From positions 1 to 56,123 of the forward strand of contig JAFRPC010000050.1 in NCBI GenBank assembly GCA_017429325.1: a DNA stretch of 56,123 nucleotides. The letters are read 5' to 3'. Positions 7,520 through 56,123 of the stretch are shown piece after piece. The stretch's first letter is position 1. Every line of letters starts with the position of its first letter. The position numbers were made by a program, and so were the translations under genes. Below the pieces are notes generated by a model. The model ran no database searches. It had not been told where the DNA came from and saw only the letters and a program-made list of their open reading frames with translations. The stretch is from Oscillospiraceae bacterium. GTDB lineage: Bacteria > Bacillota > Clostridia > Oscillospirales > Oscillospiraceae.

Positions 7520-7538
7520 AACAGGGGAGGGAACTGCC

Positions 7539-8735
7539 TTGACGGAAGAAACGAACCGCGTCGATGTGGAGAAGACCCAGGCCTTCACCCCCGACTTCGG
7601 CAACACCTTCGACGACTACGGGGAATACCGGGAACCGGAAACGGAGCCGCCTGTCCGTGCCGCCTCCGAGAAGAGCTGGCATTTCAAGCGGATGCGCATC
7701 CCCCGGCTGCTTTGGGTCGCCCTGGCTCTGGCCGTTGCGGTGGGCCTGGGCTGGCTGGCCTCGGAGCTGGGCTGGAAGTGGGCGGACGACGTACTGGCCC
7801 TCACCCGGCCCGACCAGGAGGTCGTGGTGGTCATCAACGACAACGACGACCTGGACGACATCGCCCTGACCCTGAAGGAGGCAGGCGCCATTAAATATGA
7901 GTGGCTCTTCAAGCTCTACTGCAAATTCAGCGGCTCGGAGAATTACTTTGACCCCGGCGTCTACACCATTAACCTGACCTATGATTATCACGCCCTGGTG
8001 AACAACCTGATGGCCAGCGCCGCCACCCGCGGCACCGTGAAGCTTATGATCATCGAGGGCCTGGACAGCTTCGAGATTTTTGACCTGCTGGAGCAGAACG
8101 GCGTCTGCTCCCGGGAGAAGTTAGAGGACTGCGCCGCCAACTATCATTTTGAGTTCGACTTCTTGAAGGGCCTGCCCTACGGCGCAGCCAACCGGCTGGA
8201 GGGCTATCTCTTCCCGGACACCTACGAGTTCTACCTGAAGGACGAGCCGGAAAACGTGCTGGGGAAGCTGCTTCGGAACTTTGAAGCCCGGCTGGACGAA
8301 GAAGATCTGGCGATGATTGAGGAGAGCTCCTACAGCTTGCAGCAGATCCTGACCCTGGCCTCCATCATTGAGGGCGAGGCCGCCAACGACGACGAACGCG
8401 GCCTGGTCGCCTCCGTCATGTTTAACCGTCTGAACGAGTGGCCAAGGCCGCTGCTGCAAATGGATTCCACCGTCTACTACGGCGCGAGGCTCCTGGGGAC
8501 CACCTTCTCCATGGAGCTGGACAGCCCCTACAACACCTATAAATATCCAGGCATCCCGAAGGGACCTATCTGTAATCCCGGCCTGAAATCCATCCGGGCC
8601 GTCCTGACGCCCAAGGAATCGGACTACTACTACTTTGCCACCGGTGTGGACGGCGTCAACCACTTCTTCAACGACGAGAATGACTTTGCCGACTTCCTGA
8701 ATTCGGATGAATATGAGCCAATCATCCCCGACTGA
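7539..8735 (+). CDS. mltG: Endolytic murein transglycosylase MltG (YceG-like)
   Basis: Cleaves nascent peptidoglycan strands at the outer face of the membrane, helping to terminate glycan chains. The TTG start at 7539 follows GGGGAGGG; upstream in-frame starts lie inside the DJ-1 gene. The 398-residue product has a cytoplasmic acidic N-tail, one membrane segment near residues 57-76, a LysM-like part (VVVINDNDDLDDIA) and the YceG catalytic domain. The catalytic glutamate is expected in ASIIEGEA. MDSTVYYG, YNTYKYPGIPKGPICNPG and the C-terminal FATGVDGVNHFF are family signatures. In Bacillus the mltG homologue also lies near U32-type genes, matching the order here. Confidence 0.95.
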   Translation: MTEETNRVDVEKTQAFTPDFGNTFDDYGEYREPETEPPVRAASEKSWHFKRMRIPRLLWVALALAVAVGLGWLASELGWKWADDVLALTRPDQEVVVVINDNDDLDDIALTLKEAGAIKYEWLFKLYCKFSGSENYFDPGVYTINLTYDYHALVNNLMASAATRGTVKLMIIEGLDSFEIFDLLEQNGVCSREKLEDCAANYHFEFDFLKGLPYGAANRLEGYLFPDTYEFYLKDEPENVLGKLLRNFEARLDEEDLAMIEESSYSLQQILTLASIIEGEAANDDERGLVASVMFNRLNEWPRPLLQMDSTVYYGARLLGTTFSMELDSPYNTYKYPGIPKGPICNPGLKSIRAVLTPKESDYYYFATGVDGVNHFFNDENDFADFLNSDEYEPIIPD

Positions 8736-8750
8736 GCAACGAACAATGCT

Positions 8751-9968
8751 ATGAAAAAACCCGAACTGCTCTCCCCGGCGGGGGATATGGAGAAACTGAA
8801 TATGGCCCTGCGCTACGGGGCCGACGCCGTGTATCTGGCGGGGACCTCCTTTGGGATGCGCTCCTTTGCGGGGAACTTCAGCCCGGAGGAGCTGCCGAAG
8901 GCTGTGGCCCTGGCCCACAGCTTCGGGGTGCGGGTCCACGTCACGGTGAACACCATGGCCCGGGACGAGGAGCTGGAGCGGCTGCCCGCCCACCTGGAGC
9001 TCCTGAACGATAGCGGCGTGGACGCCCTGATTGTGGCGGACTTAGGCGCCTTCCGGCTGGCCCAGCGCTGGGCGCCCCGCTGCGAGCTCCACGTCTCCAC
9101 CCAGGTCAGCGTGGCGAACCACGCCTCCGCCGCGGCCTGGCATGACTTGGGCGCGAAACGGGTCGTGCTGGCCCGGGAGCTCTCCTTGGAGGAGATCGCC
9201 GCCATTCGGGCGAAGACGCCCCCGACGCTGGAGCTGGAGGTCTTCGCTCACGGAGCGATGTGCGTGTCCTATTCCGGCCGCTGTCTGCTGTCCAACTATA
9301 TGACGGGCCGGGATTCCAACCGAGGCGCCTGCGCTCAGCCCTGCCGCTACCAGTACTTTCTGATGGAGGAAAAGCGGCCCGGCGAATACTTCCCCGTCTT
9401 TGAGGACGAGAAGGGCACCTATATCATGAATTCTCGGGATATGTGCATGATAGACCACCTGGACGACCTGATGCGGGTGGGCGTGGACTGCCTGAAAATC
9501 GAGGGCAGGGCCAAGTCGGCCTACTACGCCGCCATTGTCACCGGCGCCTATCGGCACGTGCTGGACGACGTGGCCGCAGGCCGGGACCCGGACCCGGTGT
9601 GGCGCGACGAGGTGGAGAAGATCTCCCACCGCCACTATTCCACCGGCTTCTTCTACGGCCAGCCGGGGCAGTACTACGAAGATTCCCGCTACATCCGGGA
9701 CTATCAGGTGGTCGCCGTGGTCACGGACTGCGACGATACCGGCCTGGCCTCCCTGCGCCTGCGGAACAAGTTCGCCGCGGGAGACGAGATCGAGGCCGTC
9801 GGCCCCGACCTGAAGCCCTTTGGATTCCGGGCCGGGAGCTTCGAGACCCCGGAAGGGGAGAAGCTGTACGAGGTGCGAACCCCGCAGATGCCCTTCCGGA
9901 TGCGGCTGCCCAAGGCCGTGCCGCCTTATACGATTCTGCGGCATCAGGTGGAGCTGTCTGCAAAATAG
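8751..9968 (+). CDS. Peptidase U32 family protein, probable tRNA uridine hydroxylase component (TrhP-like)
   Basis: The 405-residue protein contains a full U32 signature, EVFAHGAMCVSYSGRC, followed by GRDSNRGACAQPCR, which supplies cysteines typical of the tRNA-modifying members. The N-terminus, PELLSPAGDMEKLNMAL, is characteristic. U32 proteins related to TrhP (YegQ, YrrO) act in 5-hydroxyuridine formation at tRNA position 34, while others were called collagenases; the tRNA role is the better guess for this housekeeping context. It follows mltG after 15 bp. Confidence 0.9.
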   Translation: MKKPELLSPAGDMEKLNMALRYGADAVYLAGTSFGMRSFAGNFSPEELPKAVALAHSFGVRVHVTVNTMARDEELERLPAHLELLNDSGVDALIVADLGAFRLAQRWAPRCELHVSTQVSVANHASAAAWHDLGAKRVVLARELSLEEIAAIRAKTPPTLELEVFAHGAMCVSYSGRCLLSNYMTGRDSNRGACAQPCRYQYFLMEEKRPGEYFPVFEDEKGTYIMNSRDMCMIDHLDDLMRVGVDCLKIEGRAKSAYYAAIVTGAYRHVLDDVAAGRDPDPVWRDEVEKISHRHYSTGFFYGQPGQYYEDSRYIRDYQVVAVVTDCDDTGLASLRLRNKFAAGDEIEAVGPDLKPFGFRAGSFETPEGEKLYEVRTPQMPFRMRLPKAVPPYTILRHQVELSAK

Positions 9969-10032
9969 TGAAAGGGATTGGAATCGAATTATGTTAATCC
10001 TGTGAAGAAGGCGGTTGTTCGGCCTCTCCTGG

Positions 10033-10061
10033 TTGACATTTCTGACAGTTACATGTACAAT
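10033..10061 (+). promoter_or_regulatory. Predicted promoter of the polysaccharide operon
   Basis: Consensus TTGACA (10033-10038), a 17-bp spacer and TACAAT (10056-10061). The ATG at 10107 follows TGGAGG. Confidence 0.8.
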
Positions 10062-10106
10062 AATTGGGTAATTTTGCGATTTTGCATCGTCTGTGGAGGC
10101 CTCGGT

Positions 10107-10745
10107 ATGTACCGGATTATTGTCAAACGATTCCTGGATGTTCTGCTTTCCCTGCTGGGCTTGCTGCTGCTCCCCTGGGTGTTTCTTCTGATTGCCGCGG
10201 CGATTTTCATAGACGATCCCGGCCCGGTATTCTTCCGCCAAAAGCGGGTGGGGCTGCACAAAAAGACCTTTATGCTCCACAAATTCCGCAGTATGCGCCG
10301 CTCCACGCCCCATGATATGCCCACCCATCTGCTGGAAAACCCTGAGCAGTACATCACCCGCGTGGGCCGTTTCCTGCGCAGGAGCAGCCTGGACGAGCTG
10401 CCCCAGATTTGGGACATCTTTGTGGGGAACATGAGCATCGTCGGGCCCCGGCCCGCCCTCTGGAATCAGGAGGATCTGATCGCGGAGCGGGACCGGTACG
10501 GGGCCAACGAGCTGCGGCCCGGTCTCACCGGCTGGGCGCAGATCAACGGAAGAGATGAGCTGGAGATCCCAGAGAAGGCAAGGCTGGACGGAGAATACGC
10601 CGCGATTCTGAAGCGGGGCGGCCTGCGGGCCTTTGGGATGGACGTCAAGTGTTTCTTTGGCACCCTCAAGCCCGTCGCCACAGCCAAAGGCGTCGTCGAG
10701 GGCGCAGCTCCGGCACAGCCGCTGACAAACAACGAAAACAAGTAG
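10107..10745 (+). CDS. Polyprenyl-phosphate sugar-1-phosphate transferase (initiating sugar transferase)
   Basis: Starts repeat-unit synthesis by moving a sugar-1-phosphate from a nucleotide sugar to undecaprenyl phosphate at the inner membrane face. The 212-residue protein corresponds to the minimal catalytic domain (bacterial sugar transferase, PF02397). One N-terminal membrane or re-entrant helix (KRFLDVLLSLLGLLLL) is followed by DPGPVFFRQKRVG, KFRSM, SSLDELPQ, SIVGPRP and RPGLTGWAQINGRDE. I chose ATG 10107 over a longer in-frame start because it has a Shine-Dalgarno sequence and the promoter lies just upstream. It is the first gene of the operon. Confidence 0.95.
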   Translation: MYRIIVKRFLDVLLSLLGLLLLPWVFLLIAAAIFIDDPGPVFFRQKRVGLHKKTFMLHKFRSMRRSTPHDMPTHLLENPEQYITRVGRFLRRSSLDELPQIWDIFVGNMSIVGPRPALWNQEDLIAERDRYGANELRPGLTGWAQINGRDELEIPEKARLDGEYAAILKRGGLRAFGMDVKCFFGTLKPVATAKGVVEGAAPAQPLTNNENK

Positions 10746-10751
10746 GTGCTT

Positions 10752-11711
10752 ATGGCTGAGTTTGAGAACAAAAGACTGATCCTCACTGGCGTCACCGGGG
10801 CAAAATCCGGGGGCGCTTTTGCGGAAAAGTTAGGAATCTTTCTGCGGGAGAACCCGGATCGCTTTTCAAAGGGCATCCGGGCCCTTGTTCGTTCTTCCTC
10901 CAATCCCGAAAAGCTGCGCAGCGCCCTGCCCGGCGTCGAAGTGATGGCAGGGGACTTCGGGGACGAGTCCTTTTTGGACCGGGCAATGGAGGGCGGGGGG
11001 ATCCTGCTCCACATTGCGGGGATCTTTCTCTCCCTGCCCCTGGTCCGGGCCGCCGTCCGGCAGGGGGTGGAGCGCATCATCCTGGTCCACACCACCGGCA
11101 TCTATTCCAAATACAAGGCGGCAGGGGAGAACTACCGGCAGATCGACGACGAGGTGACGGCCCTGTGTCAGCAGGCTGGCATCCCGCTGACCATCCTCCG
11201 GCCCACCATGATTTACGGCAATCTGACGGACCACAACCTCTGTACCTTTATCCGCATGGTGGACCGCTTGCCCCTCATGCCGGTGCTCCGGGGCGCCCGC
11301 TACAGCTTGCAGCCGGTGTATTACGGGGATTTGTCGGAGGCCTATCTGCGGGTCCTGCTGGACCCGGAACACACCGCGGACAAAAACTACATCCTCTCTG
11401 GGGCGGAGCCCATACTGCTGCGGGAGATGTTTCAGGAGATCGGCGCCCAGCTCGGTAAAAAGAAAGTCCGCTTCCTGAACTGCCCCTACTGGCTCGGCTA
11501 TGGCGCGGCCTGGGGCCTGTATGTCCTGACCCTCGGGCGGAAGGATTACCGGGAAAAGGTGCAGCGCCTGTGCGAGAGCCGCTGCTATCCCCACGAGGAG
11601 GCCAGCCGGGATTTCGGCTATGCGCCGCTGCCCTTCGACCAGGGGATTCGGGGGGAGATACAGGAATATCTGGCGGCGAAGGCCGCCGGGAAAGCGGAAG
11701 GTGCAACATGA
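10752..11711 (+). CDS. NAD(P)-dependent epimerase/dehydratase (extended or atypical SDR)
   Basis: A 319-residue Rossmann protein starting KRLILTGVTGAKSGGAF, a glycine-rich dinucleotide motif that departs somewhat from the usual GxxGxxG. YSKYK supplies a Tyr-x3-Lys pair, and LRPTMIYGN and the later QPVYYGDLSEAYLRVL are usual in sugar epimerases. It probably makes or modifies the nucleotide sugar, or the lipid-linked sugar, used by the adjacent transferase; the substrate is unknown. An in-frame GTG at 10746 is an alternative start. Its last four bases overlap the next start (ATGA). Confidence 0.85.
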   Translation: MAEFENKRLILTGVTGAKSGGAFAEKLGIFLRENPDRFSKGIRALVRSSSNPEKLRSALPGVEVMAGDFGDESFLDRAMEGGGILLHIAGIFLSLPLVRAAVRQGVERIILVHTTGIYSKYKAAGENYRQIDDEVTALCQQAGIPLTILRPTMIYGNLTDHNLCTFIRMVDRLPLMPVLRGARYSLQPVYYGDLSEAYLRVLLDPEHTADKNYILSGAEPILLREMFQEIGAQLGKKKVRFLNCPYWLGYGAAWGLYVLTLGRKDYREKVQRLCESRCYPHEEASRDFGYAPLPFDQGIRGEIQEYLAAKAAGKAEGAT

Positions 11712-44583: not shown

Positions 44584-46113
44584 TCAGAATTCAATCAGGT
44601 TTTCCGCTACCTCTACGGGGAACGGCAGCAGGTCCAGAATGTCCTTCTTCACGTCGATGCCCTTGGCGACTTCCGTGAGCACAAGGCCGTGCTCGCCCAG
44701 CCGGAACACGCAGCGCTCCGTGACGTAGGTGACGTCCTGCTCGTTGTCGTGGGCGTTCTGCGCGGAGAAGCTCAGGGCCGTGACGTGGTCGGCAAACTTG
44801 AGGAACTTGCCTTCCTTGATGATCTTCAGACCGTCTTCCGTCTTTGCGATTTCCAGGCCGCCGGCAGAGAAGGTGGTGCAGAAGACAACGCGGTGGGTAA
44901 ACTGGGTGATGTTGATGAAGCCGCCGATGCCGGAGAGCTTCTTGGGGTTGTAGTGGCCGTTGACGTTGCCCTCTTTGTCAATCTCCAGAGCGCCGATAAA
45001 GCAGATGTCCAGACCGCCGCCGTCATACAAGTCAAACTGCTCGGCAGTGGTGCAGACCGCCTGGGTGCCCATGGCGGCGCCGAAGGCCAGACCGCCCATG
45101 GGAAGGCCCTTCATGGAACCGGCCTCCACCGTCAGGGAGACCTGGGGCAGGGTCCCGACTCGGGCGGCTTCCACCGCCACGAATTCGGGAGCTCCGACGC
45201 CGATGTTGACCACGTCGCCGGGCTTCAGCTCCTTGGCCGCCCGCTGGGCGATGAGCTGCTTCGCCAGGTCCTTGGGGTTCGTGGAGGCGTGGCTCTTGGC
45301 GTATTCTACCAGGGCCTCGTCGGTCATGGGAACGTCGCCCGCAAATTTGGGGTCGGAACCGGGAATGCCCTGGATCTGGGTCTGCTCCGGGGTCACGCAG
45401 ACATAGTCCACCAGCACTGCGGGAATGGAGACCTCAATGGGACGGCGGGGCGTGTCCAGAACCTTTTCCACCTGGACGATGACCTTGCCGCCGCGGCGCT
45501 TGGTGGCCTGGGCAATGGAGAGGGGATCGCCGATGACCGGCTCGTTCTCCATGGAAATGTTGCCGCGGCTGTCCACGCTGCTGGCCTTGATGAGCGCCAC
45601 GTCGGGCTTGGGCGTCGCGTACTTCAGGTGCCGCTTGCCATTGATCCAGATCTCCTCCACAAGCTCCTGCTTGGAGCGCTCGTTGAGCTGATAGCCCTTG
45701 TATTTCGGGTCCACAAAGAGGTTGAGACCGGCGTCGGAGATGACGAAATCCTGACCGCTGGCCGCAGCCCGGACCGCGTGGGACATGACGCCGAAGGGCA
45801 GGTTGTAGGCCTCGACCTGATTGTCGAGGACCATTTGCGCGGTGACAGGCATGGAGGCGTAGTGGCTCAGATACAGGCACTTGACGGCACCCAGGGTGAC
45901 GATCCGCTCGCAGGCTGTGTTGGGAGCCCAGCCGCCGAGACCGGCAGTGCAGTAGATGGTCAGGTCCTTGGGGTGGCCCTCCGCCTCATAGCGCTCGTTG
46001 AGGGCGATGGAGAGCTGCTCGCAGTTGTACATGCCGAGGAAGTTGTTGTAGATCAGCGTGTCGCCGTCCTTGATCAATTTTACAGCTTCAGCCGGCGTAA
46101 TAAATTGGGGCAT
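44584..46113 (-). CDS. Acyl-CoA:acetate (acyl) CoA transferase, fused YdiF/propionate-CoA-transferase type
   Basis: 509 residues holding both alpha and beta halves. It moves CoA between acyl-CoA and a carboxylate through a glutamyl-CoA intermediate. The N-terminus AEAVKLIKDGDTLIYNNF and VVNIGVGAPEFVAVEAAR are family blocks. The catalytic glutamate is expected in LTVEAGSMKGLPMGGLAFGAA. TAGGAGGG precedes the ATG. Directly downstream of the 2-oxoacid oxidoreductase, it could release branched acids from their CoA esters and conserve the thioester as acetyl-CoA. Confidence 0.93.
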   Translation of the reverse strand: MPQFITPAEAVKLIKDGDTLIYNNFLGMYNCEQLSIALNERYEAEGHPKDLTIYCTAGLGGWAPNTACERIVTLGAVKCLYLSHYASMPVTAQMVLDNQVEAYNLPFGVMSHAVRAAASGQDFVISDAGLNLFVDPKYKGYQLNERSKQELVEEIWINGKRHLKYATPKPDVALIKASSVDSRGNISMENEPVIGDPLSIAQATKRRGGKVIVQVEKVLDTPRRPIEVSIPAVLVDYVCVTPEQTQIQGIPGSDPKFAGDVPMTDEALVEYAKSHASTNPKDLAKQLIAQRAAKELKPGDVVNIGVGAPEFVAVEAARVGTLPQVSLTVEAGSMKGLPMGGLAFGAAMGTQAVCTTAEQFDLYDGGGLDICFIGALEIDKEGNVNGHYNPKKLSGIGGFINITQFTHRVVFCTTFSAGGLEIAKTEDGLKIIKEGKFLKFADHVTALSFSAQNAHDNEQDVTYVTERCVFRLGEHGLVLTEVAKGIDVKKDILDLLPFPVEVAENLIEF

Positions 46114-46131
46114 AAACGTCCCTCCTATGAA

Positions 46132-46668
46132 TTATTCGATGCAGGAAGCGCCGCGCTTCAGCGCTTCGCGGTTCAGGGGGATCAGCTTGGCCTTGCGCTC
46201 GCCCAGCTTCTCCAGCAGAGCTTCCAGAACGGTCTCAATATCGACACACTTGGCCTTGCCGATGTAAGCGCCCAGCATGATCATGTTGGAGACCTTGGGG
46301 TTGCCCAGCTCCGTGGCGATCTCGGTGCAGGGAACATAATAGGCGTTGACGTCGGTCCTTTTGACCTTGATGTCGATCATGGAGCTGTTGACGAAGATGG
46401 AGCCGCCGGGAACGACGGAATTCTCAAACTTCTCCAGCGAGGGACGGTTCATGACGATCAGGGAAGTGGGACGGGTGACGAGAGGAGAGTCGATCTCATC
46501 GTCGGAGAGCATGACGGAGCAGTTGGCCGTGCCGCCGCGCATCTCGGGACCGTAGGAGGGGATCCAGGAGGTGTTTTTGCCTTCCTTCATACCGGCAGCA
46601 GCCAGAAGCTGGCCCATGAGCAGAACGCCCTGACCGCCGAAGCCTGCGAAAATATTTCTTTCAACCAT
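46132..46668 (-). CDS. 2-Oxoacid:ferredoxin oxidoreductase, gamma subunit
   Basis: 178 residues, the gamma subunit of VOR/KOR-type enzymes. The start [55 protein letters not shown] is a clear family mark. It forms one complex with the three subunits upstream. GGAGG precedes the ATG. Confidence 0.95.
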
Positions 46669-46671
46669 GAC

Positions 46672-47406
46672 TTATACCTCCTTAAAAGTGCCCAGAGGAT
46701 AGTAGGGGATCATGTTGTCCTGAAGCCAATCCATGGACTCGGCGGGAGATTTGCCCCAGTTGGTGGGGCAGGGAGACAGGACCTCCACCAGGGAGAAGCC
46801 TTTGCCCTCGATCTGGCACTGGAAAGCCTTCTTGATGGCGGCCTTGGTCTTGCGGATGTTGGCTGCGTTGTTCAGTGCGCAGCGGGCGATATAGGCGGAG
46901 CCGTTGATGGTGGCCAGCATTTCGGCGATGCGGATGGGCTCGCCGCAGTGGTCCTTCTGACGGCCATAGGGAGAAGTGGTCGTCACCTGACCCACCAGGG
47001 TGGTGGGGGCCATTTGGCCGCCGGTCATGCCGTAAATCGCGTTGTTGATGAAGATGGTGGTGATCTTCTCGCCGCGGTGGGCAGCGTGGACGATCTCGGC
47101 GGTGCCGATGGAGGCCAGGTCGCCGTCGCCCTGATAGGTGAAGATGTACTTGTCGGGGTGGACCCGCTTGAAGCCGGTGGCGACGGCGGGAGCACGTCCG
47201 TGAGCGGCCTCGTACATATCCACGTTCATATAGTTGTACATGAACACGGCGCAGCCGACGGGGGCGACGCCAGCGCTCTTTTCCTGAATCCCAAGCTCCT
47301 CAATGACCTCGGCAACCAGACGGTGCACGATGCCGTGACCGCAGCCGGGGCAGTAGTGGAAGGGGACATCCGTCAAAACGGGAGTTTTCTGAAACACAAC
47401 TGCCAT
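46672..47406 (-). CDS. 2-Oxoacid:ferredoxin oxidoreductase, beta (thiamine diphosphate) subunit
   Basis: 244 residues. Cofactor and cluster residues are visible: YCPGCGHGI (Cys-x2-Cys), the thiamine-diphosphate/Mg site QGDGDLASIGTAE, and NNAIYGMTGGQMAPTT. It catalyses the decarboxylation step and passes electrons to the delta-subunit clusters. It starts 2 bp downstream of the alpha gene. Confidence 0.96.
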   Translation of the reverse strand: MAVVFQKTPVLTDVPFHYCPGCGHGIVHRLVAEVIEELGIQEKSAGVAPVGCAVFMYNYMNVDMYEAAHGRAPAVATGFKRVHPDKYIFTYQGDGDLASIGTAEIVHAAHRGEKITTIFINNAIYGMTGGQMAPTTLVGQVTTTSPYGRQKDHCGEPIRIAEMLATINGSAYIARCALNNAANIRKTKAAIKKAFQCQIEGKGFSLVEVLSPCPTNWGKSPAESMDWLQDNMIPYYPLGTFKEV

Positions 47407-47408
47407 TC

Positions 47409-48479
47409 TTAAGCCCTCCTCATAATCTGCATTACGCGCTCAGCAATCTCTTCCGCAGAGGGAATGATGCTGCCGCCCTTGCCCATGAATTCCACAGGCT
47501 TCTCGCCGTTGACGGCAAGGCGGACATCCTCGACCATCTGGCCGTTGGAGATCTCAACCGTCAGCGCACCCTGCACAGTCTCCTGCGTGATCACATCATG
47601 TACGTCCTGCGTGGGGAAGGGCCACAGGGTAATGGGCCGTACCAGGCCGCACTTGATGCCGTTTTCCGCAAGGATGCGAACGGCGGCCTTGCAGACACGG
47701 GCTACGGTGCCGTAGGCGCAGAGCACAAAATCGGCGCCCTCGGTCTTGAACTTCTCCACCATGACCTCGTTCTTGCGGATCTCGTCATACCGGGCATTGA
47801 GCCGGGTCATCACTTCGTCCAGCGTTTCGGTCTCGATGTACAGGGAGTTGATGACGGCTCTGGGACGGTCGCCTTTGGGGTCCCAGCCCTGGCAGGCCCA
47901 AGGCTTCTCGGGCATGGTGGGGTTATCGTTCATCTTGAGTTCCACGGGCTCCATCATCTGACCGATCAGGCCGTCAGCCAGAATGATAACGGGGGTGCGA
48001 TACTTGTCGGCAGTATCAAAGGCATGGGGCATCAGGTCGCAGGTCTCCTGAATGGAGGAAGGCGCAAAGACCACGCAGCGATAGTCGCCGTGGCCGCCGC
48101 CCTTGCAGGCCTGGAAGTAGTCGCCCTGGGAGGCTTGGATGTTGCCGAGGCCGGGGCCGCCGCGCATCATGTTGACGATGACGCAGGGAACCTCAGCGGC
48201 AGCACAGGTGGAAATGCCCTCCTGCTTCAGGGAGATGCCGGGAGAGGAGGAGGAGGTCATGGCTCTGGCACCGGCGCCGCCGGCGCCGTAGACCATGTTG
48301 ATGGCAGCCAGCTCGCTCTCAGCCTGGAGGAAGCAGCCGCCCACCTGGGGCATACGCCGGGACATATATTCAGGAATATCGTTCTGCGGGGTAATGGGAT
48401 AGCCGAAGAAATAGCGGCAGCCCGCCTGGATTGCGGCTTCGGCAATGGCCTCGCAACCCTTCATCAGTTTCTTAGCCAT
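47409..48479 (-). CDS. 2-Oxoacid:ferredoxin oxidoreductase, alpha subunit (VorB/KorA type)
   Basis: 356 residues. GCEAIAEAAIQAGCRYFFGYPITPQNDIPEYM and TSSSSPGISLKQEGISTCAAAEVPCVIVNMMRGGPGLGNIQASQGDYF are the conserved pyrimidine-binding regions. The substrate is probably a branched-chain 2-oxoacid, judged by the nearby ilvE and CoA transferase, but 2-oxoglutarate or an aryl pyruvate cannot be excluded. I use ATG 48479, 8 nt after GGAGG, and not the longer frame that overlaps the ferredoxin gene. Confidence 0.95.
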   Translation of the reverse strand: MAKKLMKGCEAIAEAAIQAGCRYFFGYPITPQNDIPEYMSRRMPQVGGCFLQAESELAAINMVYGAGGAGARAMTSSSSPGISLKQEGISTCAAAEVPCVIVNMMRGGPGLGNIQASQGDYFQACKGGGHGDYRCVVFAPSSIQETCDLMPHAFDTADKYRTPVIILADGLIGQMMEPVELKMNDNPTMPEKPWACQGWDPKGDRPRAVINSLYIETETLDEVMTRLNARYDEIRKNEVMVEKFKTEGADFVLCAYGTVARVCKAAVRILAENGIKCGLVRPITLWPFPTQDVHDVITQETVQGALTVEISNGQMVEDVRLAVNGEKPVEFMGKGGSIIPSAEEIAERVMQIMRRA

Positions 48480-48492
48480 ACACGGTTCCTCC

Positions 48493-48699
48493 TTATTTCT
48501 CGATGATGATGGCAACGTCCGGGCAGGTCATTGCGCAGGACATGCAGCCGATGCATTCCTCCGGATGCGCCACTTCGACAGGGTAGTATCCCTTGACGTT
48601 CAGATGGCTTGTCTGGGGAGCCAGAACGCCCTTGGGACACAGGCGCACACAAAGGCCGCAGCTCTTGCACACGTCTTCTTGGATGATGACTTTAGTCAT
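48493..48699 (-). CDS. 2-Oxoacid:ferredoxin oxidoreductase, delta (2x[4Fe-4S]) subunit
   Basis: A 68-residue ferredoxin-like protein with two Cys motifs, CKSCGLCVRLCPKG and CIGCMSCAMTCPDV. It carries electrons from the beta subunit to free ferredoxin. It is encoded just upstream of the alpha gene, the usual order in four-subunit enzymes. Confidence 0.95.
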   Translation of the reverse strand: MTKVIIQEDVCKSCGLCVRLCPKGVLAPQTSHLNVKGYYPVEVAHPEECIGCMSCAMTCPDVAIIIEK

Positions 48700-48763
48700 G
48701 GCATTTCCTCGCTTTCATTACATTTCATTGATTGGTTTGATACCACAAAAATGACAAACTGAA

Positions 48764-49480
48764 TTACAAGCCTTCAGAAAGGAACTTATCCCAGCTCCTG
48801 TGCATCATCACCTCGATCGGTTGATATTTTCCAACATACGTCTGATCGAGACGATGCTCCAAGACGTATTGTTTGAACGAATTTAATACGGCTTCCGTGC
48901 CGCAGCTGCCCCAGACCGGGATCCCGGTCTCCAGGGAAAGCGCCTTCACCAGTTCATAGCCCTCAACCAAATGGGAGAGCTCCGTCTCTCCGGCCAGATT
49001 GGCGTTGTTGACGATTCCGGTGACGGAAAGGCGGGAGACATATTGGATCTTGTCCAGCGTAGCAATGGCGCTGGGGAGGTCCGCTGCGGTGGGCCGCAGG
49101 GGATTGACGATGAACAGTACGTGAAGCAGCTCCGGCGGGATCTGCTCGAAGCGGGGCTTATACTGCCCCAGGGCAATGGAGCCCACGTCGTCGCCGCCAA
49201 TGTCGAAGATCACCGTGCCCTCGCCGGGAGCAAAGGCCGAATAGACCTGGGCGGAAAGGGACAGGATCTCGATTTTCTCCAGGGCGTAGGGGGGCATGAT
49301 TAGCCTGACGCCGGCAGGGGAGAGCACGTCTCCCCGTTCGCTGACCCGGAAGTAGGGATTGATGACGTCCAGGTCCACCACCGTGCAGGGACCCTCCTTG
49401 GCCTTTTGAATCGCCAGATTCAGGGCCATCTCGCTCTTGCCGCTTCCAAAACTGCCCATCAGGACCCAATACTCTTTCAC
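48764..49480 (-). CDS. P-loop NTPase, conserved neighbour of the 2-oxoacid oxidoreductase
   Basis: 238 residues. The N-terminus EYWVLMGSFGSGKSEMALNLA is a Walker A motif, followed by VVDLDVINPYFR, VIFDIGGDDVGSIALGQY and FIVNPLRPTAADLPSAI, so it resembles MinD/SIMIBI-class or adenylate-kinase-like NTPases. GTG 49480 is the better start; a TTG at 49486 is too near the Shine-Dalgarno. It is the first gene of the oxidoreductase operon. A role in assembly or regulation of the complex is a guess only. Confidence 0.82.
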   Translation of the reverse strand: MKEYWVLMGSFGSGKSEMALNLAIQKAKEGPCTVVDLDVINPYFRVSERGDVLSPAGVRLIMPPYALEKIEILSLSAQVYSAFAPGEGTVIFDIGGDDVGSIALGQYKPRFEQIPPELLHVLFIVNPLRPTAADLPSAIATLDKIQYVSRLSVTGIVNNANLAGETELSHLVEGYELVKALSLETGIPVWGSCGTEAVLNSFKQYVLEHRLDQTYVGKYQPIEVMMHRSWDKFLSEGL

Positions 49481-49500
49481 GCACAAACCACCTTCCGTAT

Positions 49501-49513
49501 GTTGTCAGACAAC
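49501..49513. promoter_or_regulatory. Predicted FadR/GntR operator
   Basis: GTTGTCAGACAAC is a perfect palindrome with a central A. Its core TTGTCAGACAA fits TNGTNNNACNA, the FadR-subfamily pattern. It lies about 22-34 bp downstream of the predicted transcription start, where a bound regulator would block elongation, and the operon it precedes probably extends to the gntR gene. Confidence 0.65.
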
Positions 49514-49541
49514 CTTTCCATGATGTCATACTTTTAACTTC

Positions 49542-49570
49542 ATTTTAGCAAACGAAATACAGAATGTCAA
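49542..49570 (-). promoter_or_regulatory. Predicted promoter of the oxidoreductase-CoA transferase operon
   Basis: Minus-strand TTGACA (49565-49570), a 17-bp spacer and TAAAAT (49542-49547). Confidence 0.82.
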
Positions 49571-49591
49571 CCGGATTTTATATATTTTATA

Positions 49592-49628
49592 TGAAAAAAA
49601 CAGGAAAACGCCTGTTTGCATTTTCCTG
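49592..49628 (-). terminator. Terminator downstream of the paralogue pair
   Basis: The arms CAGGAAAA (49601-49608) and TTTTCCTG (49621-49628) form a hairpin; the minus-strand transcript continues into TTTTTTTCAT. Confidence 0.8.
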
Positions 49629-49654
49629 CTTTTTTGATGTGAAATGTGTTGTAA

Positions 49655-52117
49655 TCAGGGAATATCTTTTGTATCCGCTTCTGTTGGGATCCGTTTCTTG
49701 ACTGCCGCGTCGATGAGCAGTCGATAGTTCTCGCCGAAATCTGCCACGGTAGAATAGACCTTCTTATCGTCCTCGCTGATTGCGCCGTCCAGGAAGGTGC
49801 TCTTATCCGGCGCAGTGGCCTGGAGATAATACCCGATGACCTGTGTGGTGTCAAACGTCAGCGTTACGGTTTCATCTGTAAAGGTGGTATGGACGCCTTC
49901 CAGGTCGGAATTGCCGTGCTCGTCACGCCCTCTGAACAAGAGGAAGCCTCCGTTGGATTTCGCGTGTTTTTCAAAGGTTTCCCGCGTCTTTTCGTCGATG
50001 GTCTCCTGGTACTTGAATTTGATTTGCATATTTCGGGCCAGCACCATGGAAACCGGATAGCAGGGGAATATCTTATTCTGCATCTCCAAAAAGCGCTTAT
50101 CATTGAAACCTGCGGCAGTAATGTCACTGGAAGGCGAAATCAAAGTCTCGCTGAGCCGGAACATGTCTCCGGTCAGGGAAAAAATGCCGGGGTTGAACCA
50201 ATCCCGGTTGATTCCGATTTTTGCCACATTCATACTGACCTGAACGGTACATTTTTTGTTCAGCAGGGAAGAGGAAATCTTGCTCTCTGCCGCGCTGAGT
50301 TTCCGCGAACGGTTTCCATTGAAGAGAAACATAGAACCGGAGGAGATCATGCTGGCAGAGGTTGTGTAATCCGTCTTCACATCCAGAGAAGCTGCGTCTG
50401 TTTCAAATTCAACCTTCGTAAAACCTTTGGGCGTACTGGGAGAAACAATATCGTTTTGAAGGATATCTTCATCCATATTATCATGGATGGCAGTGGAAAT
50501 AATGAGCTGTTGGTGCAGATACGTGATCTCTTCATTCAGCGCGTCTATCTCGTTCTTCAACGGTTTGATAAGCGCAGGGTAGGAAGACTTTTTGGTCTCC
50601 TTCGCTTCTTTTTCTTCCACAAGCCGAATCAGCAGCGTTGTCAGCTCGTAAGACTGCTCCAAATACATGTCATGTGCATCCAGGTAGTTCCTGCTGACGC
50701 TGTTCAAATCTTTGTAGATGCTTTTGATGTCCTTTTCCGCTTTGGACCCGGCTTCCACGACAGAGGGGAAGGAGGTGATCAGCTTATCCAGCATTCTGTC
50801 GGTGAGCTGAATTTTCGATTTGGAGCGAATCTCCAAAATAGGGATAACGACTTTCGGAGTCAGCTTTGCATCGAAGGTCTTCAATGTCAGGTGTTCTACT
50901 TCGGTTTTATACTTCAGCACACTGCTCATCAAAGGCTTCAGCTTGGTGGAACCCAAATCGTTCCCGATGGTTTTGCAGATGTCGTAGATGCCGGAATAGA
51001 GAAAAATCCTACGCAGAGAGAGGCGCTGGAGCTTTTCAATGATTTTTTCGGGGCTGTCCATCAGCTCAGCGGAGGTAAAGGAAGTCCCGATCATCTCAAA
51101 CCAGTTCTTGGGCTCAAAACTCACTGGGTAAATATACCCGCCTGTGGGAGTCAGCTTTCTATAGTTGTAGAGGGTCTGCCTGGCCTCCTGGAGTTCTGCA
51201 CCGGAGCCGCTGTCCAAAATGCCCTCAAGAATCTTCATATCGTTGGGCGAGAACACGGCGAGCACCTTGGATTTCTTTTCGTTGATTTCATCCAGAAAGT
51301 CCTCGGCGTTGTCCTCGTACCACTCCATAAAGGCGTTTTCGTAGTCCTCCTTCAGGGGATACTGCTCTCTCAGAGCCATTTTCGTTTCCGTCAGCAGCTT
51401 TTTCCATTTGTAGATTTCATTCGTGTATTCTTCATACAGGCGGAAATAGACCTCCTGAAGGGTATAGCCATTCTCCACGCCGTCGCCAAAATCGTAGGGA
51501 TAGGGAGAAATCAAAAGTTTGCGCAGCTTGTTCTTGTGGAGGGCCAAGCGTTTGTTCACCTTGGGCGTCAGCATATCCAGCGCCATTTTATATTGGTATG
51601 CGAGATTTCTGCCGTTGTCCGAATTGGTCATCGTGCAGGGGTCAAACATCTTATTGGCAAGCTGGCATTCGTTGGCCTCAATGACGGGACCTTTGATTTC
51701 CTTGTTTACATCATAGCTGAAATCCTCCGCCCGGAGAATGATTCCCGGAATCAGCAGGCAGAGAAATTGATTGTATCCGTTTCCGCCGATTTTGGAGTCG
51801 ATCTCATCGTACACCTGGGAGGAAAAGGCCTTGGTCTTTTTGGTTGTTGTTTCTTTTTTCAGCTCATCCTTAAGTCCCAGCGGGAGCCTTTCAAAGATTG
51901 GAACGGCGGTTGTTGTACTTCCTGTTTCTGTGGCTGTGGAAACGCCCAGTCCACTCTCTTCCGATTCTTTTTTCTCTTTGATCATCAGAACCATGTATGC
52001 AATCTTCTGGATCAGATCCAGACGCTGTGCCTCCAGCTCTTTTGTCAAAAGGGTTTCCTTAATCGGTTTTTTCCCGCTTCCGGATTTTGCGTTATTCTTT
52101 TTTTTCTGACCGGCCAT
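49655..52117 (-). CDS. Large protein of unknown family, paralogue A
   Basis: 820 residues with no recognised family. The N-terminus is Lys-rich, then an acidic Ser/Thr linker to about 75. Blocks shared with the upstream gene are LLIPGIILRAEDFSYD (121-136), GPVIEANECQLANKMFDPC (143-161), LTPKVN...KNKLRKLLISPYPYDF (183-210), NDMKILEGILDSGSGAELQEAR (292-313), LTPTGGYIYPVSFEPKNWFE (322-341), MNVAKIGINRDWFNPGIF (628-645), FPCYPVSMVLARN (683-695) and VIGYYLQATAPDKS near 765-780. A helical, probably coiled-coil section covers about 455-545. No signal peptide or clear membrane span is seen. ATG 52117 follows AGGAGC. Base composition is AT-richer than in flanking genes. Function unknown. Confidence 0.85.
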   Translation of the reverse strand: MAGQKKKNNAKSGSGKKPIKETLLTKELEAQRLDLIQKIAYMVLMIKEKKESEESGLGVSTATETGSTTTAVPIFERLPLGLKDELKKETTTKKTKAFSSQVYDEIDSKIGGNGYNQFLCLLIPGIILRAEDFSYDVNKEIKGPVIEANECQLANKMFDPCTMTNSDNGRNLAYQYKMALDMLTPKVNKRLALHKNKLRKLLISPYPYDFGDGVENGYTLQEVYFRLYEEYTNEIYKWKKLLTETKMALREQYPLKEDYENAFMEWYEDNAEDFLDEINEKKSKVLAVFSPNDMKILEGILDSGSGAELQEARQTLYNYRKLTPTGGYIYPVSFEPKNWFEMIGTSFTSAELMDSPEKIIEKLQRLSLRRIFLYSGIYDICKTIGNDLGSTKLKPLMSSVLKYKTEVEHLTLKTFDAKLTPKVVIPILEIRSKSKIQLTDRMLDKLITSFPSVVEAGSKAEKDIKSIYKDLNSVSRNYLDAHDMYLEQSYELTTLLIRLVEEKEAKETKKSSYPALIKPLKNEIDALNEEITYLHQQLIISTAIHDNMDEDILQNDIVSPSTPKGFTKVEFETDAASLDVKTDYTTSASMISSGSMFLFNGNRSRKLSAAESKISSSLLNKKCTVQVSMNVAKIGINRDWFNPGIFSLTGDMFRLSETLISPSSDITAAGFNDKRFLEMQNKIFPCYPVSMVLARNMQIKFKYQETIDEKTRETFEKHAKSNGGFLLFRGRDEHGNSDLEGVHTTFTDETVTLTFDTTQVIGYYLQATAPDKSTFLDGAISEDDKKVYSTVADFGENYRLLIDAAVKKRIPTEADTKDIP

Positions 52118-52212
52118 GTTTCCAGCTCCTGTTACTGTGATAAATTGGTTTCTTTCCAGGCGCATGGGAGTTCAGGATCCCTTGCGCCTGGCAGAATCGC
52201 AGGAAAGCACGT

Positions 52213-54423
52213 TTATTGGCTCTCCAGCTCCTTCATCTTCTTCTTGATAACAGTCATATACTCTTCAACGTACTTACGGATGTTAACAATATCTTTCTTG
52301 TTATCATCCGTCTCGGAATTATAGGGTAAACTCTTGTCTTCCGGCGTATTCTCCAGATAGTATCCAATGATTTGAGGTGTCGGAATCTTAATAATTATAG
52401 ACATGTATTCCTTCCCACTATCATTCTGGTTTGTCGTTGAAGTCGTTTTGCTGCCGCTGCCGGAATTGTAGAACACATAGCTCTTTGCGGTGGAGGCCTC
52501 TTTCACGGCTTCATGAACCTTGGAAAAGTAACTCTCTGCCATGACATTTAGCTTGATTGTGACATCCCTCGCCAGCAGCATCGCAACCGGGAAACAGGGG
52601 AAAATATAGTCATCTGCATTAAAGTTTTTCGCGTCAAATTGAGAGGAGATCCGTTTTGTTGTCAGATGATACATATCGTCAGAGAGTACAAAGACGCCCG
52701 GGTTGAACCATTCGCGCTCAATACCAATCTTGGCGATATTCATCGCAATCTCAATCGTTGCATTTTCGGACTCACAAAGAGATTCAAAGTCAGTCTTTGT
52801 TTCTGTATTCGTGGTTTTCTTCTTGAAAATCCAGAAGCCCTTTGACTTCGTGTTCGTAGAAACGGTGATATCCTCTTTGGAAAAATCATGGGATTCGCCC
52901 TGTTCATGCTTGATATAGAAGAAGGAGTAGCCCTCCGGTGTAATTCGAGAAGAAATATCTTCATTCGTACTCATGCACTGCGCATAAACCGCGCTTGTGC
53001 TGATTTCCTCGATTTGGGCTTCAATTTCATCGAGCTCCGCCTGCAATGCGTCTCGTGTCCTGGAAAGGTTTTTGTTGTTGCTGATTTTTGCTGATTTTGC
53101 CAGCGCGGAAGTATATGTTTTAATCGCCTTATTGAGGGCATCGGCTTTATCTGAAACGGTTGTACCTTGATCTTGGATGTTTTTAATCAGGGTCGTTTTA
53201 TCTTCGCTGATAATATAGGGCTTTACGACGGAACTGATGATCTCACTTCTCCCTGCGCTTGACGGAAGAAGGCATATGCCGGTAATCATGCCCGCCAGGG
53301 TCTTTGTGAAATTCGCAAACGCAGTGGTCCCTGCCGATTCCATATTTTTGAAGGCTTTGTCATATTCGGTATTTGCCTGAGCCAAAGCTGTAGCTGCTGC
53401 TTTCACATCATTGTCATCCGGAACGAGCCCTTTCATTGCATCCAGCTTGGCAGAGACAGAGCGTTTTCTCTTCAAGAGGTTGGACATCTTCTCAAACAGT
53501 ACCGTCGGGGAGTCGAGCAGATCGATGCCCTCCTTGAAGCCGGCCTTATACTTTTCTGAAGTATCCAGCAGTTCAAACCAGTTGGTGGGGTTAAACTTTA
53601 CGGGGTAGATATAGCCGCCGTCCGGTGTGAGTTTCCGAAGATTCCGCATGGTGGCCCTGGCCTCCTGGAGCTCCGCGCCGCTGCCGCTGTCCAGGATGCC
53701 TTCGATGATCTTCATGTCATTTTCGGAAAACACCGAAAGCAGGGTTGACATCTTCTGGTTGACTGCATTCAGGGACGAATATGCATTGTCTTCATACCAT
53801 TGTAAATAATCATTATTGATTTTTGTGTTGATTCTTTTGAGTTCTTCTTGGTTATTGGTTGCTTCCGCAGCATTCTTTTGCGCCTCATACTTCTTGTTGA
53901 ATTCTTCTCTTTTACTGCTCTGAAGTTTGCTCCATGCTTCAAGTGTCTTTACATAGTCATCATAAAGGCGGAAGAACACCTCCTGGAAGGTGTTGATTTC
54001 TGTGTCGGATTCCAGGTTGAACTTATACGGATATTTGGATAATAACAGGTCGCGCAGCTCGTTTTTGGATTTCGCGATTTCGAAATTCAGCTTTGGCGTC
54101 AGGGCATCCAGCGCAGATTTGTACTGATGCGGCAGCATCCGACCGTTGTCGGCGCCGCAAATAGAGCAGGGGTCATAGAGCTTGTTGGCAAGCCTGGATT
54201 CATTTGCTTCCACGGTGGGACCTTTGTCTGCGTGGTTTTTATAGTCATATTCAAAGTCTTCCATGGTGAGAGCAATACCGGGCAGCAGAAGAATCAACTT
54301 CTGATTGGGGTTATCGCCGCCGATGACATTGTTGACTTTCTTGTGAAATTGATACGTAAAGTCCTTTTGTTGGTCATTCAATTTGAGAACATCTTTCTTC
54401 TCATATTCGGTGTTTTCAGGCAT
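52213..54423 (-). CDS. Large protein of unknown family, paralogue B
   Basis: 736 residues, same architecture as the downstream 820-residue protein: LLLPGIALTMEDFEYD (45-60), GPTVEANESRLANKLYDPC (68-86), ADNGRMLPHQYKSALDALTPKLN (91-113), NDMKIIEGILDSGSGAELQEAR (235-256), LTPDGGYIYPVKFNPTNWFE (265-284), MNIAKIGIEREWFNPGVF (561-578), FPCFPVAMLLARDVTIKL (608-625) and PQIIGYYLENTPEDK near 684-699. Helical stretches lie near 155-225 and 405-475. A mildly hydrophobic run, TTAFANFTKTLAGMITGICLL (366-386), is absent from paralogue A. AAGGAG precedes the ATG. The two genes are 95 bp apart and surely one transcription unit. Function unknown; a heteromeric pair is plausible. Confidence 0.87.
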   Translation of the reverse strand: MPENTEYEKKDVLKLNDQQKDFTYQFHKKVNNVIGGDNPNQKLILLLPGIALTMEDFEYDYKNHADKGPTVEANESRLANKLYDPCSICGADNGRMLPHQYKSALDALTPKLNFEIAKSKNELRDLLLSKYPYKFNLESDTEINTFQEVFFRLYDDYVKTLEAWSKLQSSKREEFNKKYEAQKNAAEATNNQEELKRINTKINNDYLQWYEDNAYSSLNAVNQKMSTLLSVFSENDMKIIEGILDSGSGAELQEARATMRNLRKLTPDGGYIYPVKFNPTNWFELLDTSEKYKAGFKEGIDLLDSPTVLFEKMSNLLKRKRSVSAKLDAMKGLVPDDNDVKAAATALAQANTEYDKAFKNMESAGTTAFANFTKTLAGMITGICLLPSSAGRSEIISSVVKPYIISEDKTTLIKNIQDQGTTVSDKADALNKAIKTYTSALAKSAKISNNKNLSRTRDALQAELDEIEAQIEEISTSAVYAQCMSTNEDISSRITPEGYSFFYIKHEQGESHDFSKEDITVSTNTKSKGFWIFKKKTTNTETKTDFESLCESENATIEIAMNIAKIGIEREWFNPGVFVLSDDMYHLTTKRISSQFDAKNFNADDYIFPCFPVAMLLARDVTIKLNVMAESYFSKVHEAVKEASTAKSYVFYNSGSGSKTTSTTNQNDSGKEYMSIIIKIPTPQIIGYYLENTPEDKSLPYNSETDDNKKDIVNIRKYVEEYMTVIKKKMKELESQ

Positions 54424-54647
54424 AATATCTCTCCTTTATGTGATAGTTTTGGATGTGTTTGATATCGTCATACAACAATCGCCGCACCTGAACTGCCAAT
54501 AGAACCGCTGAATCCTCACATCCTTTCTGTTTATTTTTTACTTGCTTCCCGCTGTCCGCGGTTCGGACTGCTCCTTGTCAGGCAGGAAGAATCGCTGCGC
54601 CATTTGCAATCGCAAAACCAAGACTACAATGGACTACTATCAATATA

Positions 54648-55115
54648 TCACAAAATACAAGAATTGTAAATAATATAATCGGATATATTGCACAAAATTC
54701 TGAAAACATCATCCGATTCAGAGTTTTTTTTCAGGAAGTAAATAATGCGATTGGCTTCCTGAAATCCCATTGCAAGATGGAAGTTCAGACTGTCACGGTT
54801 TTCGAGCTCGCAATCGCTGGCAAACTCCGTGCAGTGCTTTTCCTTCGACCATTTTTCACAGCTTTGCAGAAGCTCTCTTGCATAGCCGTGATGCCGGTAG
54901 GCTTCCAGAATGAAAATCCCTTCCAAGTAACCGACCGGCGAGGTCTCGGTCCCTTCCACATAATCTCTCCGCAACTGACATTGTGCAAATCCAATGGGGG
55001 TTTCCCCCACATATTTGATAAAACAGACCGAATCCTCCGCTTCTGTCAGCTTTTCAAATTCCTCCTGAAAACTGCTTAAGCTGTGCTCCTGCCACAGGTA
55101 TCTTTCACAGAGCAA
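54648..55115 (-). pseudogene. 5'-truncated GNAT acetyltransferase, AAC(6')-like
   Basis: The reading frame encodes most of an aminoglycoside 6'-N-acetyltransferase-like GNAT protein: RRDYVEGTETSPVGYLEGIFIL, the acetyl-CoA loop YRHHGYARELLQ, then CTEFASDCELENRDSLNFHLAMGFQEANRIIYFLKK. Related enzymes begin about 15 residues earlier. Here the frame reaches a stop (TAG, 55125-55127) inside a terminator hairpin, leaving only a TTG at 55115 whose sequence is part of that hairpin. No promoter is seen and a gene-sized tail continues past the usual C-terminus. Probably a truncated remnant; weak translation from TTG cannot be excluded. Confidence 0.65.
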
Positions 55116-55140
55116 AAAGACGCCCTAAGGCGTCTTTTTG
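55113..55140. terminator. Bidirectional terminator hairpin
   Basis: A perfect 11-bp stem, AAAAAGACGCC (55114-55124) and GGCGTCTTTTT (55129-55139), with loop CTAA. It ends the flavodoxin-family gene and abuts the truncated acetyltransferase frame. Between it and 55244 only a short direct repeat (GAACAAACGTA, near 55152 and 55183) is seen. Confidence 0.88.
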
Positions 55141-55243
55141 CTGTGTAAGAAGGAACAAACGTACACTTTCCGATGGGAGAAAGAACAAACGTAACGTCTG
55201 CCGCCTCGACAAACGGGATTCTATTGATCTTTCTTTCCTTTGC

Positions 55244-55963
55244 TTATTGCTTCCACGGTCTTTGCGCGTCGGTCCATCCGTTGTGATTCCAATACCGATA
55301 GTCTGTATATTCGGGATCCTGCTTACCGAGGTTCTTCTGCAGCATTCTCACCATATAGAATTTCATTTTTGTGATAAATCCCGTGCGAGCGGGTCTTGTG
55401 AAATCGAATTTGCACGTTTGCTTTGCGATCCGAACGAGTCTCTCCGACATCTCCGTTTTTTTCTTTTCGGGAATCTTATCCCATACGACTTCGCTCATCA
55501 GCTTGAAGCTGCACGCCTTGATCTTGCTGATCCCCCACCATGAAAGGCTGTCCCTAATATCCTTTGCTGCCGACTTTCCGCCGGCACCGAGGCACTGCGT
55601 GATGATCACGGCGCGTTTGCCGAACATCTCCTTTGCGGGACGGTGCGGCATCCACCTGTATCCGAAATGATCCAGCATCGTTTTCATGGCGCCTGTCGCG
55701 TGGAAAACATACGCGGGCGAGGCGAAAACAAGAAGATCGGCGGCAAGCATCGCTTTTTCTATCTTCTGAACATACTCCGCATCCTTGCACAGATGCTCGT
55801 CCTTCAGAAAGCAAACGGTGCAGCCCGCGCAGAAGTTGGGGCAGTCGCGCGGAAGATAAAACTCCGTTATCTCGGCGTCCTCTCTGAACTGATCGAGGAA
55901 TATCTCTTTCAGGTGATATGTAACGCCTCGTTTTTCGGTACCGTTTACAACCGTTATTCTCAT
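55244..55963 (-). CDS. Flavodoxin-family NAD(P)H-dependent oxidoreductase, iron-sulfur-flavoprotein type
   Basis: 239 residues. The FMN phosphate loop is in VNGTEKRGVTYHL, and the family cysteine motif is CPNFCAGCTVCFLKDEHLC near residues 41-59, which in iron-sulfur flavoproteins can hold a 4Fe-4S cluster. FASPAYVFHATGAMKTMLDHFGYRW is the second flavin-binding block. The C-terminal 60 residues are basic and aromatic. It may reduce quinones, nitro compounds or similar electrophiles. ATG 55963 follows GGAGG. A small palindrome, CCAGATTCTGG (55980-55990), lies upstream and could be an operator. Confidence 0.88.
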   Translation of the reverse strand: MRITVVNGTEKRGVTYHLKEIFLDQFREDAEITEFYLPRDCPNFCAGCTVCFLKDEHLCKDAEYVQKIEKAMLAADLLVFASPAYVFHATGAMKTMLDHFGYRWMPHRPAKEMFGKRAVIITQCLGAGGKSAAKDIRDSLSWWGISKIKACSFKLMSEVVWDKIPEKKKTEMSERLVRIAKQTCKFDFTRPARTGFITKMKFYMVRMLQKNLGKQDPEYTDYRYWNHNGWTDAQRPWKQ

Positions 55964-56095
55964 TTTTACCTCCACAAATCCAGATTCTGGTTATCGGTTT
56001 TAATCAGCAAAATACAAGATATAGGTTAATGTGCCTTTTATGGGACATCGGCCATGGTATACTTGGTGCATAGAGAACGAAAGGCGGCGTGAGCT

Positions 56096-56123
56096 ATGCA
56101 CCACAAGAAAGAATTGAGTCTGA
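56096..56123 (+). CDS. Start of a plus-strand gene cut by the window end
   Basis: ATG 56096 opens MHHKKELSL and runs off the window. AAGGCGGCG lies upstream at a reasonable distance, and a TATACT at 56058-56063 could be a -10 element, with a poor -35. It is divergent from the flavodoxin-family gene, so a regulator is possible, but nothing can be identified from nine codons. Confidence 0.4.

Follow-up and report, generated by a model that had tools for sequence, protein, structure and literature searches.

Introduction

Bacterial gasdermins and the CDC-like (CDCL) proteins of Bacteroidota are among the described systems closest to the gene pair analyzed here. Some operons that encode gasdermins also include a lysozyme, an amidase or a phospholipase, an organization for which mimicry of holin-endolysin lysis has been proposed (PMC9612521); an activating protease is often encoded next to the gasdermin, and the N-terminal cysteine is palmitoylated in the majority of bacterial gasdermins (PMC9612521). 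Long and short CDCL proteins constitute a known bicomponent case (PMC11952106; PMC11169675), and the pairs studied there, selected for their SpII signal peptides, target rival cells with proteins of a MACPF/CDC-type fold (PMC11169675; PMC11952106). In an arrangement of the gasdermin or MACPF kind, each subunit inserts two hairpins into the membrane (PMC11952106).

Here we describe a tandem pair of paralogous genes, B and A, located on a contig of 56,123 nucleotides from an Oscillospiraceae bacterium (JAFRPC010000050.1, assembly GCA_017429325.1). This contig, hereafter the window, was analyzed at its full length; its genome is incomplete, with 2.03 Mb assembled into 68 contigs and a completeness of 72.8%. 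Positions given without a locus label refer to it. That B and A are the products of one old duplication and have been kept as an ordered two-gene unit is well supported by the sequence comparisons reported below.

Results

Gene B (52213-54423, minus strand) encodes 736 residues and comes first in the pair, with an AGGAG-type ribosome site just upstream of its ATG. Gene A (49655-52165, minus strand) follows after 47 bp and encodes 836 residues counted from its first ATG. Because an AGGAG motif lies directly upstream of another ATG at 52117, we prefer this start, from which A most likely has 820 residues. The open reading frame (ORF) check recovered both genes where the first-pass annotation, made from the sequence letters without database searches, had reported tandem paralogues of 820 and 736 residues. 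Their alignment by BLASTP (33% identity over 753 columns, 346 bits, E 1e-111) indicates that the likeness is not due to chance. Among 42 members of the family (alignment A3, which leaves out L041, a gene cut by its contig start), mean pairwise identity is 0.51 for the N-terminal part, 0.21 for the coiled coil and 0.39 for the C-terminal part, as expected from the conserved ends and variable, coil-like middle already noticed in the pair. Before counting, we removed L020 and L050, which are the same contigs as L008 and L009 judging by length and match, as well as L018, a decayed relic.

The clearest result comes from a tree of 43 near-complete proteins, in which the first genes of the pairs, including B, form one clade (100, starred) and the second genes, including A, form another (99, starred). 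This tree was built by a quick method, with Shimodaira-Hasegawa-like approximate likelihood ratio test (SH-aLRT) support only and without ORFs shorter than 600 residues. Both clades span Ruminococcus-type bacteria and Fibrobacter, i.e., two phyla. Therefore, either the duplication predates the split of the lineages that carry the pair, or both genes were transferred together. Complete pairs occur at nine loci, the window among them, and two further loci contain a pair with one cut gene: the second gene of L019 is cut by the contig end, and at L046 the first gene survives as a fragment whose best score is with the B type. In all 11 readable loci B precedes A, a count from which L041 and L052 were left out, their A-type genes starting at a contig edge. 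Pairwise identities among the nine B proteins correlate with those among the nine A proteins (correlation coefficient r of 0.85, with 2 of 20,000 permutations as high); this value comes partly from the split between two groups, but inside the groups the correlation is also seen, with r of 0.90 for one (six distances) and 0.73 for the other (ten distances). Separate clades, fixed order and correlated divergence are what a heteromeric two-component system would leave; from this evolutionary evidence, which supports a two-component reading well, we infer that A and B probably act together. These observations agree with the duplication and divergence proposed in the first-pass annotation.

The surroundings of the other pairs vary. 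The guanine-cytosine (GC) content of the family stretch is below that of its flanks in 9 of the 11 pair loci. At L008, in the same genus, a 772-residue protein (2769-5087, plus strand) with a PI3/PI4-kinase-like match of 29.4 bits (cut-off 27.1) is encoded convergently with the pair. Two Fibrobacter pairs (L042, 13587-15810; L030, 6556-16358) lie among effector-like genes, including a patatin and a barnase-type ribonuclease match of 27.9 bits, both found downstream of one pair. Small genes of a single family (77-116 residues), three near the L030 pair and one near that of L042, could be immunity genes.

Outside Ruminococcus-type bacteria and Fibrobacter, the family occurs in single form, with 22 complete singletons, none of which has a second copy alongside in the DNA examined; the contigs of L044 and L045 are distinct but belong to the same assembly, and the fragments at L049, L051 and L055 fall outside this count. 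Homologues that always stand alone among unrelated neighbours would have spoken against a paired system; the singletons do look like this, the two pair clades do not. Many singletons are closely followed by a partner gene, defined here as a downstream ORF of at least 90 residues on the same strand starting with ATG, GTG or TTG. In Enterobacteriaceae the partner is an N-acetylmuramidase (PF11860 in L033 and L048, with which L035 clusters; the L034 copy is broken into two ORFs). L009 has an M15 peptidase as second gene, L043 an NlpC/P60-Amidase_5 protein, and L026 a GH108 fragment interrupted by stops, 259 bp away. These wall hydrolases from four Pfam families resemble phage lysins: among 50,697 phage records, 649 match the muramidase, 142 the M15 peptidase and 300 the amidase, and some of the matching phage proteins are annotated as endolysins or lysins. 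Other partners are a DUF6765 protein (L028), an unnamed family common to L025, L027, L036, L037, L044 and L045 (at 249 bp in L045), and a second unnamed family common to L009 and L023. No ORF satisfying the partner rule lies within 300 bp at L031 and L040, and those at L047 (91 residues, 281 bp) and L054 (868 residues, 167 bp) are doubtful or unlike the other partners. On the upstream side, a small conserved protein, possibly a regulator, directly precedes four singletons (L023, 1264-1602; L028, 1555-2022; L032, 3-401; L054, 9326-9724), with no Pfam match for the copies scanned (L028 and L023), and a 302-residue gene is kept at L033, L034 (195 residues), L035 and L048 in Enterobacteriaceae, with no Pfam match for the L033 copy.

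Each protein comprises three parts, all encoded on the minus strand. The N-terminal conserved domain, delimited with alignment A5 (without L054), covers residues 17-292 of B (53548..54375) and has no convincing family match; its counterpart in A (51074..51841) is preceded by an extension that finds no match in B. It is followed in B by a long helical coiled-coil part according to an AlphaFold2 model (residues 301-495, 52939..53523), variable in sequence and giving generic coiled-coil matches, and by a C-terminal beta domain with a WFNP motif (residues 486-736, 52216..52968), as supported by alignment A4 (without the second L042 copy and L054) and by a model of a relative's domain. The corresponding domain of A lies at 49682..50482. 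In the alignment, this domain of B carries two Ser/Thr-rich loops with aromatic tips, loop 1 at residues 508-555 (52759..52902) and loop 2 at residues 625-672 (52408..52551). The most Ser/Thr-rich 25-mer sits in these two loops in 38 of 42 members, and a Gly-aromatic patch is present in each loop in most of the alignment rows displayed. The Ser/Thr fraction of loop 2 is 0.19 in the A type, 0.39 in the B type and 0.43 in singletons, and its aromatic residues number 8.0 in the A type vs 4.8 in both others; A and B are therefore not equivalent.

The first-pass annotation had loosely based a pore-forming hypothesis on a hydrophobic run in B. This run is real, with a Kyte-Doolittle (KD) hydropathy of 1.34 over 19 residues centred on residue 377, inside the coil. 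It is nevertheless weak: the coil of A has no comparable run (best value 0.88, with four charged residues), and the best 19-residue hydropathy of the whole protein is 1.40 for B and 1.24 for A. Across the family, the most hydrophobic 19-mer of the coil falls at 360-395 in 7 of 10 B-type proteins, 2 of 10 A-type proteins and 9 of 22 single members (18 of 42 overall). A membrane helix is thus not supported as a family trait, the run being weak and not a trait of the A type. A pore is possible for reasons other than this run, namely the weak resemblance of a relative's C domain to gasdermins and the lysin-like genes beside some singletons.

As noted previously, no signal peptide is evident in A or B, the maximum 10-residue hydropathy near the start being below 1 in both by a rough rule. 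Because other members score high by the same rule (one L030 copy, 2.33; L040, 2.15; L054, 1.6), we claim this absence for A and B alone. The first cysteine of B is residue 86, and A has none in its first 100 residues.

No named domain had been recognized in the pair at first reading, and profile and library searches likewise gave no naming match. Searches of Pfam, NCBIfam, PHROGs and PADLOC returned nothing or weak matches only for A, and weak matches only, mostly in the coiled coil, for B. Many other members, searched against Pfam (C domain and N domain), PHROGs and PADLOC, gave weak or coiled-coil matches only. For the N domain, matches were at chance level in a Pfam scan of 41 members and in a profile search of the PDB. 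The strongest library match of the C domain was PHA01746, in 2 of 40 members (best E 0.0003), and the viral fold library gave no match at E up to 0.001. We regarded the coiled-coil matches (RipA, SMC, F-BAR, Tc, colicin, helical toxins) as generic and did not rely on them. No MACPF/CDC family appeared among the Pfam families listed for the C domain or among the structural matches listed. In the open-licence literature we found no paper recognizably on this family, which has no name to search by.

Relatives are rare. The pair is present in 2 of 23 genomes of the genus, including that of the window. Matches occur in 4 of 394 genomes of the order, two of them short stretches only, and in 4 of 398 genomes of the phylum, one being the window's own and three covering the coiled coil only with E above 1e-4. 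When a five-member alignment was used in a single scan of 84,980 species genomes, 37 loci were returned, in six phyla going by record titles; two of these loci are contigs already in our locus set, and, as many family loci are metagenome assemblies, labels may be wrong. They include Fibrobacter, Metasolibacillus, Kluyvera, Atlantibacter, Salmonella enterica subsp. diarizonae, Bacteroides timonensis, and a Helicobacter and a Treponema assembly. The decayed relic mentioned above (L018, about 7400-10900), interrupted by stops, lies in a different genome of this order. The Salmonella relative has no match in E. coli. Plasmid or phage origin was rejected, B and the Salmonella relative having no match in plasmids or in the phage collection; viral contigs contained no relative of B or of alignment A3. 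Records near the window's own genome may be missing from the plasmid, phage and viral collections.

Within the window, an intrinsic-terminator-like hairpin with a T run lies behind gene A (49598..49617, minus strand), among 15 such sites found in the whole stretch vs 7.9 expected. A weak promoter-like site was detected about 220 bp upstream of B (54642..54670, minus strand), but such sites are hardly above chance (11 found vs 8.6 expected). An ATPase gene (48764-49486), identified by eye from its Walker motif, adjoins the pair, and the other flank contains a GNAT acetyltransferase ORF and an FMN reductase according to Pfam. The GNAT ORF (54648-55115, minus strand, TTG start) looks truncated at its N-terminus, its Pfam match starting at position 16 of 116, and is probably the gene remnant that had been placed beside the pair. 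The difference in composition reported between the pair and its neighbourhood is confirmed, with a GC content of 48.0% for A and 45.0% for B vs 59.6% for 44584-49486; however, 54424-56123 is at 46.6%, such that the stretch richer in adenine and thymine runs from about 49.5 kb to the contig end and is wider than the pair. No tRNA was detected anywhere in the window by ARAGORN, and an Rfam scan of 49400-56123 was likewise negative. A clean empty insertion site was sought in 18 other same-genus loci, two of which are distant homologues. Similarity over 79-102 bp ahead of the ATPase gene was seen in 3 of the 18, and the gene beyond varies among the 15 loci inspected, so that no such site was found.

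Discussion

Our analysis suggests, tentatively, that B and A could constitute a cytoplasmic two-component membrane-permeabilising system. We regard this as the most economical account because it brings together the pairing, the missing signal peptides, the lysin-type neighbours of singletons and the weak gasdermin resemblance. According to this model, A and B would be made without a signal peptide, as their sequences indicate, and some trigger would let them assemble through the N-terminal domain and the coiled coil. The C-terminal beta domains would then meet and their Ser-rich, aromatic-tipped loops engage the membrane, the resulting lesion killing or lysing the cell or releasing proteins. 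With its two loop segments, each subunit would fit an arrangement of the gasdermin or MACPF kind. For many singletons, a changing small partner gene close behind, sometimes encoding a lysin-like wall hydrolase, would play a part like that of the endolysin in holin-endolysin lysis; in the pair, this second position would fall to the A paralogue, whose loop 2 differs from that of B. A broader proposal appears more doubtful to us: an unnamed family of large membrane-permeabilising proteins, found in many phyla, with a gasdermin-like C domain on a coiled-coil stalk and exchangeable lysin-type partners, which would have become bicomponent in Ruminococcus-type bacteria and Fibrobacter.

Several results weigh against membrane permeabilisation. 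The best structural matches of a relative's modelled C domain, obtained with VIA-align, are the bacterial gasdermins 7n50, 7n51 and 7n52, with Z values of 4.0, 3.6 and 3.2 that lie below the typical chance best of the tool. Sequence searches of the PDB with B, with a whole-family profile and with separate profiles for the C and N domains gave only weak or coiled-coil matches and no name. A partner ORF starts within 50 bp of the stop in 13 of 22 singletons vs 1 of 9 complete pairs (that one with a doubtful GTG start), but this contrast does not hold within 135 bp, where the counts are 16 of 22 and 6 of 9; of these six pair ORFs, the one in the window shares DNA with the ATPase gene but uses a different frame, and at L029 and L039 the ORF resembles a housekeeping gene by eye. 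Furthermore, the beta alternation expected of transmembrane beta-hairpins is absent from the arms of the Ser-rich loops, and the loops may therefore be flexible instead. This last point is compatible with a heteromeric scaffold or container that forms no pore, in which the N domain and the coil would build a cytoplasmic assembly with the Ser-rich loops as flexible linkers; the gene downstream of a singleton would encode an enzyme that is held or positioned, and in the pair two paralogues would alternate. We consider such a scaffold possible, though rather uncertain. The N domain is indeed the most conserved part of the proteins, the helical coil is long, and different partners occupy one position. 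Yet a scaffold leaves unexplained the wall hydrolases found beside singletons and the fact that gasdermins take the first three ranks among the structural matches of the C domain, weak as these matches are.

Resemblance of some partners (muramidase, amidase, M15 peptidase) to antibacterial effectors could alternatively reflect outward delivery, the family protein, once released, carrying or translocating the changing downstream product into rivals and A being a second part of the carrier. The patatin and ribonuclease match downstream of a Fibrobacter pair, and the small-gene family recurring near two such pairs, which could provide immunity, would fit this explanation. We nonetheless find it unlikely, given that neither A nor B has an evident signal peptide, that most first partners lying within 135 bp (13 of 16) have a rough N-terminal hydropathy under 1.5 (exceptions being L023, 2.62; L024, 1.6; L048, 1.53), and that no secretion genes were noticed in a by-eye reading of the ORFs listed. 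More improbable still is an ordinary mobile gene pair without joint function, i.e., a duplication gained by horizontal transfer in which both copies have one and the same activity. The lower GC content of most pair loci and the presence of the pair in few genomes of the genus are consistent with acquisition, but the separate clades and fixed order argue for two distinct roles that have been kept, as does the Ser/Thr-poorer loop 2 of the A type.

If membrane permeabilisation by B and A is correct, a two-component form made of large proteins would be added to the bacterial pore or lysis systems, and one would predict that A and B are required together and that singletons require their small partner. 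The pairing question is directly testable because named strains are among the loci, such as Ruminococcus flavefaciens ATCC 19208 (pair) and Lysinibacillus macroides DSM 54 (singleton). Even without a pore, the family is conserved and sporadic, has no match in any of the family libraries that we searched, and extends over six phyla by record title.

How the pair relates to known systems can be considered in this light. Helical pore-forming toxins (AhlB, SmhB, XaxB, MakA) are among many coiled-coil matches, and the hydrophobic run of B lies inside the coil; however, their coils match no better than those of RipA, SMC or colicins, and A has no such run. Phage holin-endolysin cassettes would be similar by their working only, some singletons combining a possibly membrane-acting protein with a nearby wall hydrolase gene. 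In contrast to holins, which are small membrane-spanning proteins, the members of this family are large, and neither B nor the Salmonella member showed a relative in the phage records. The C domain of a relative has its best structural matches, weak as they are, with bacterial gasdermins, but no sequence similarity to gasdermins was found for A or B. Gasdermin chains of 240-263 residues consist of the gasdermin domain alone, in contrast to 820 and 736 residues with two further parts; A and B lack an N-terminal cysteine, and no protease was recognized among the neighbours of the pair in the window (ATPase, GNAT, FMN reductase). The CDCL pairs studied differ by the hydrophobic N-terminus that A and B lack, and may also differ by their MACPF/CDC-type fold and their action on rival cells. 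Because size, N-terminal cysteine, adjacent protease and signal peptide do not correspond, we assigned the pair to neither gasdermins nor CDCL. The bicomponent mode of assembly known for CDCL is the one that we propose for the pair. What it shares with two-component CDCL is the adjacency of long and short paralogues that are kept together, here at every one of the 11 readable loci.
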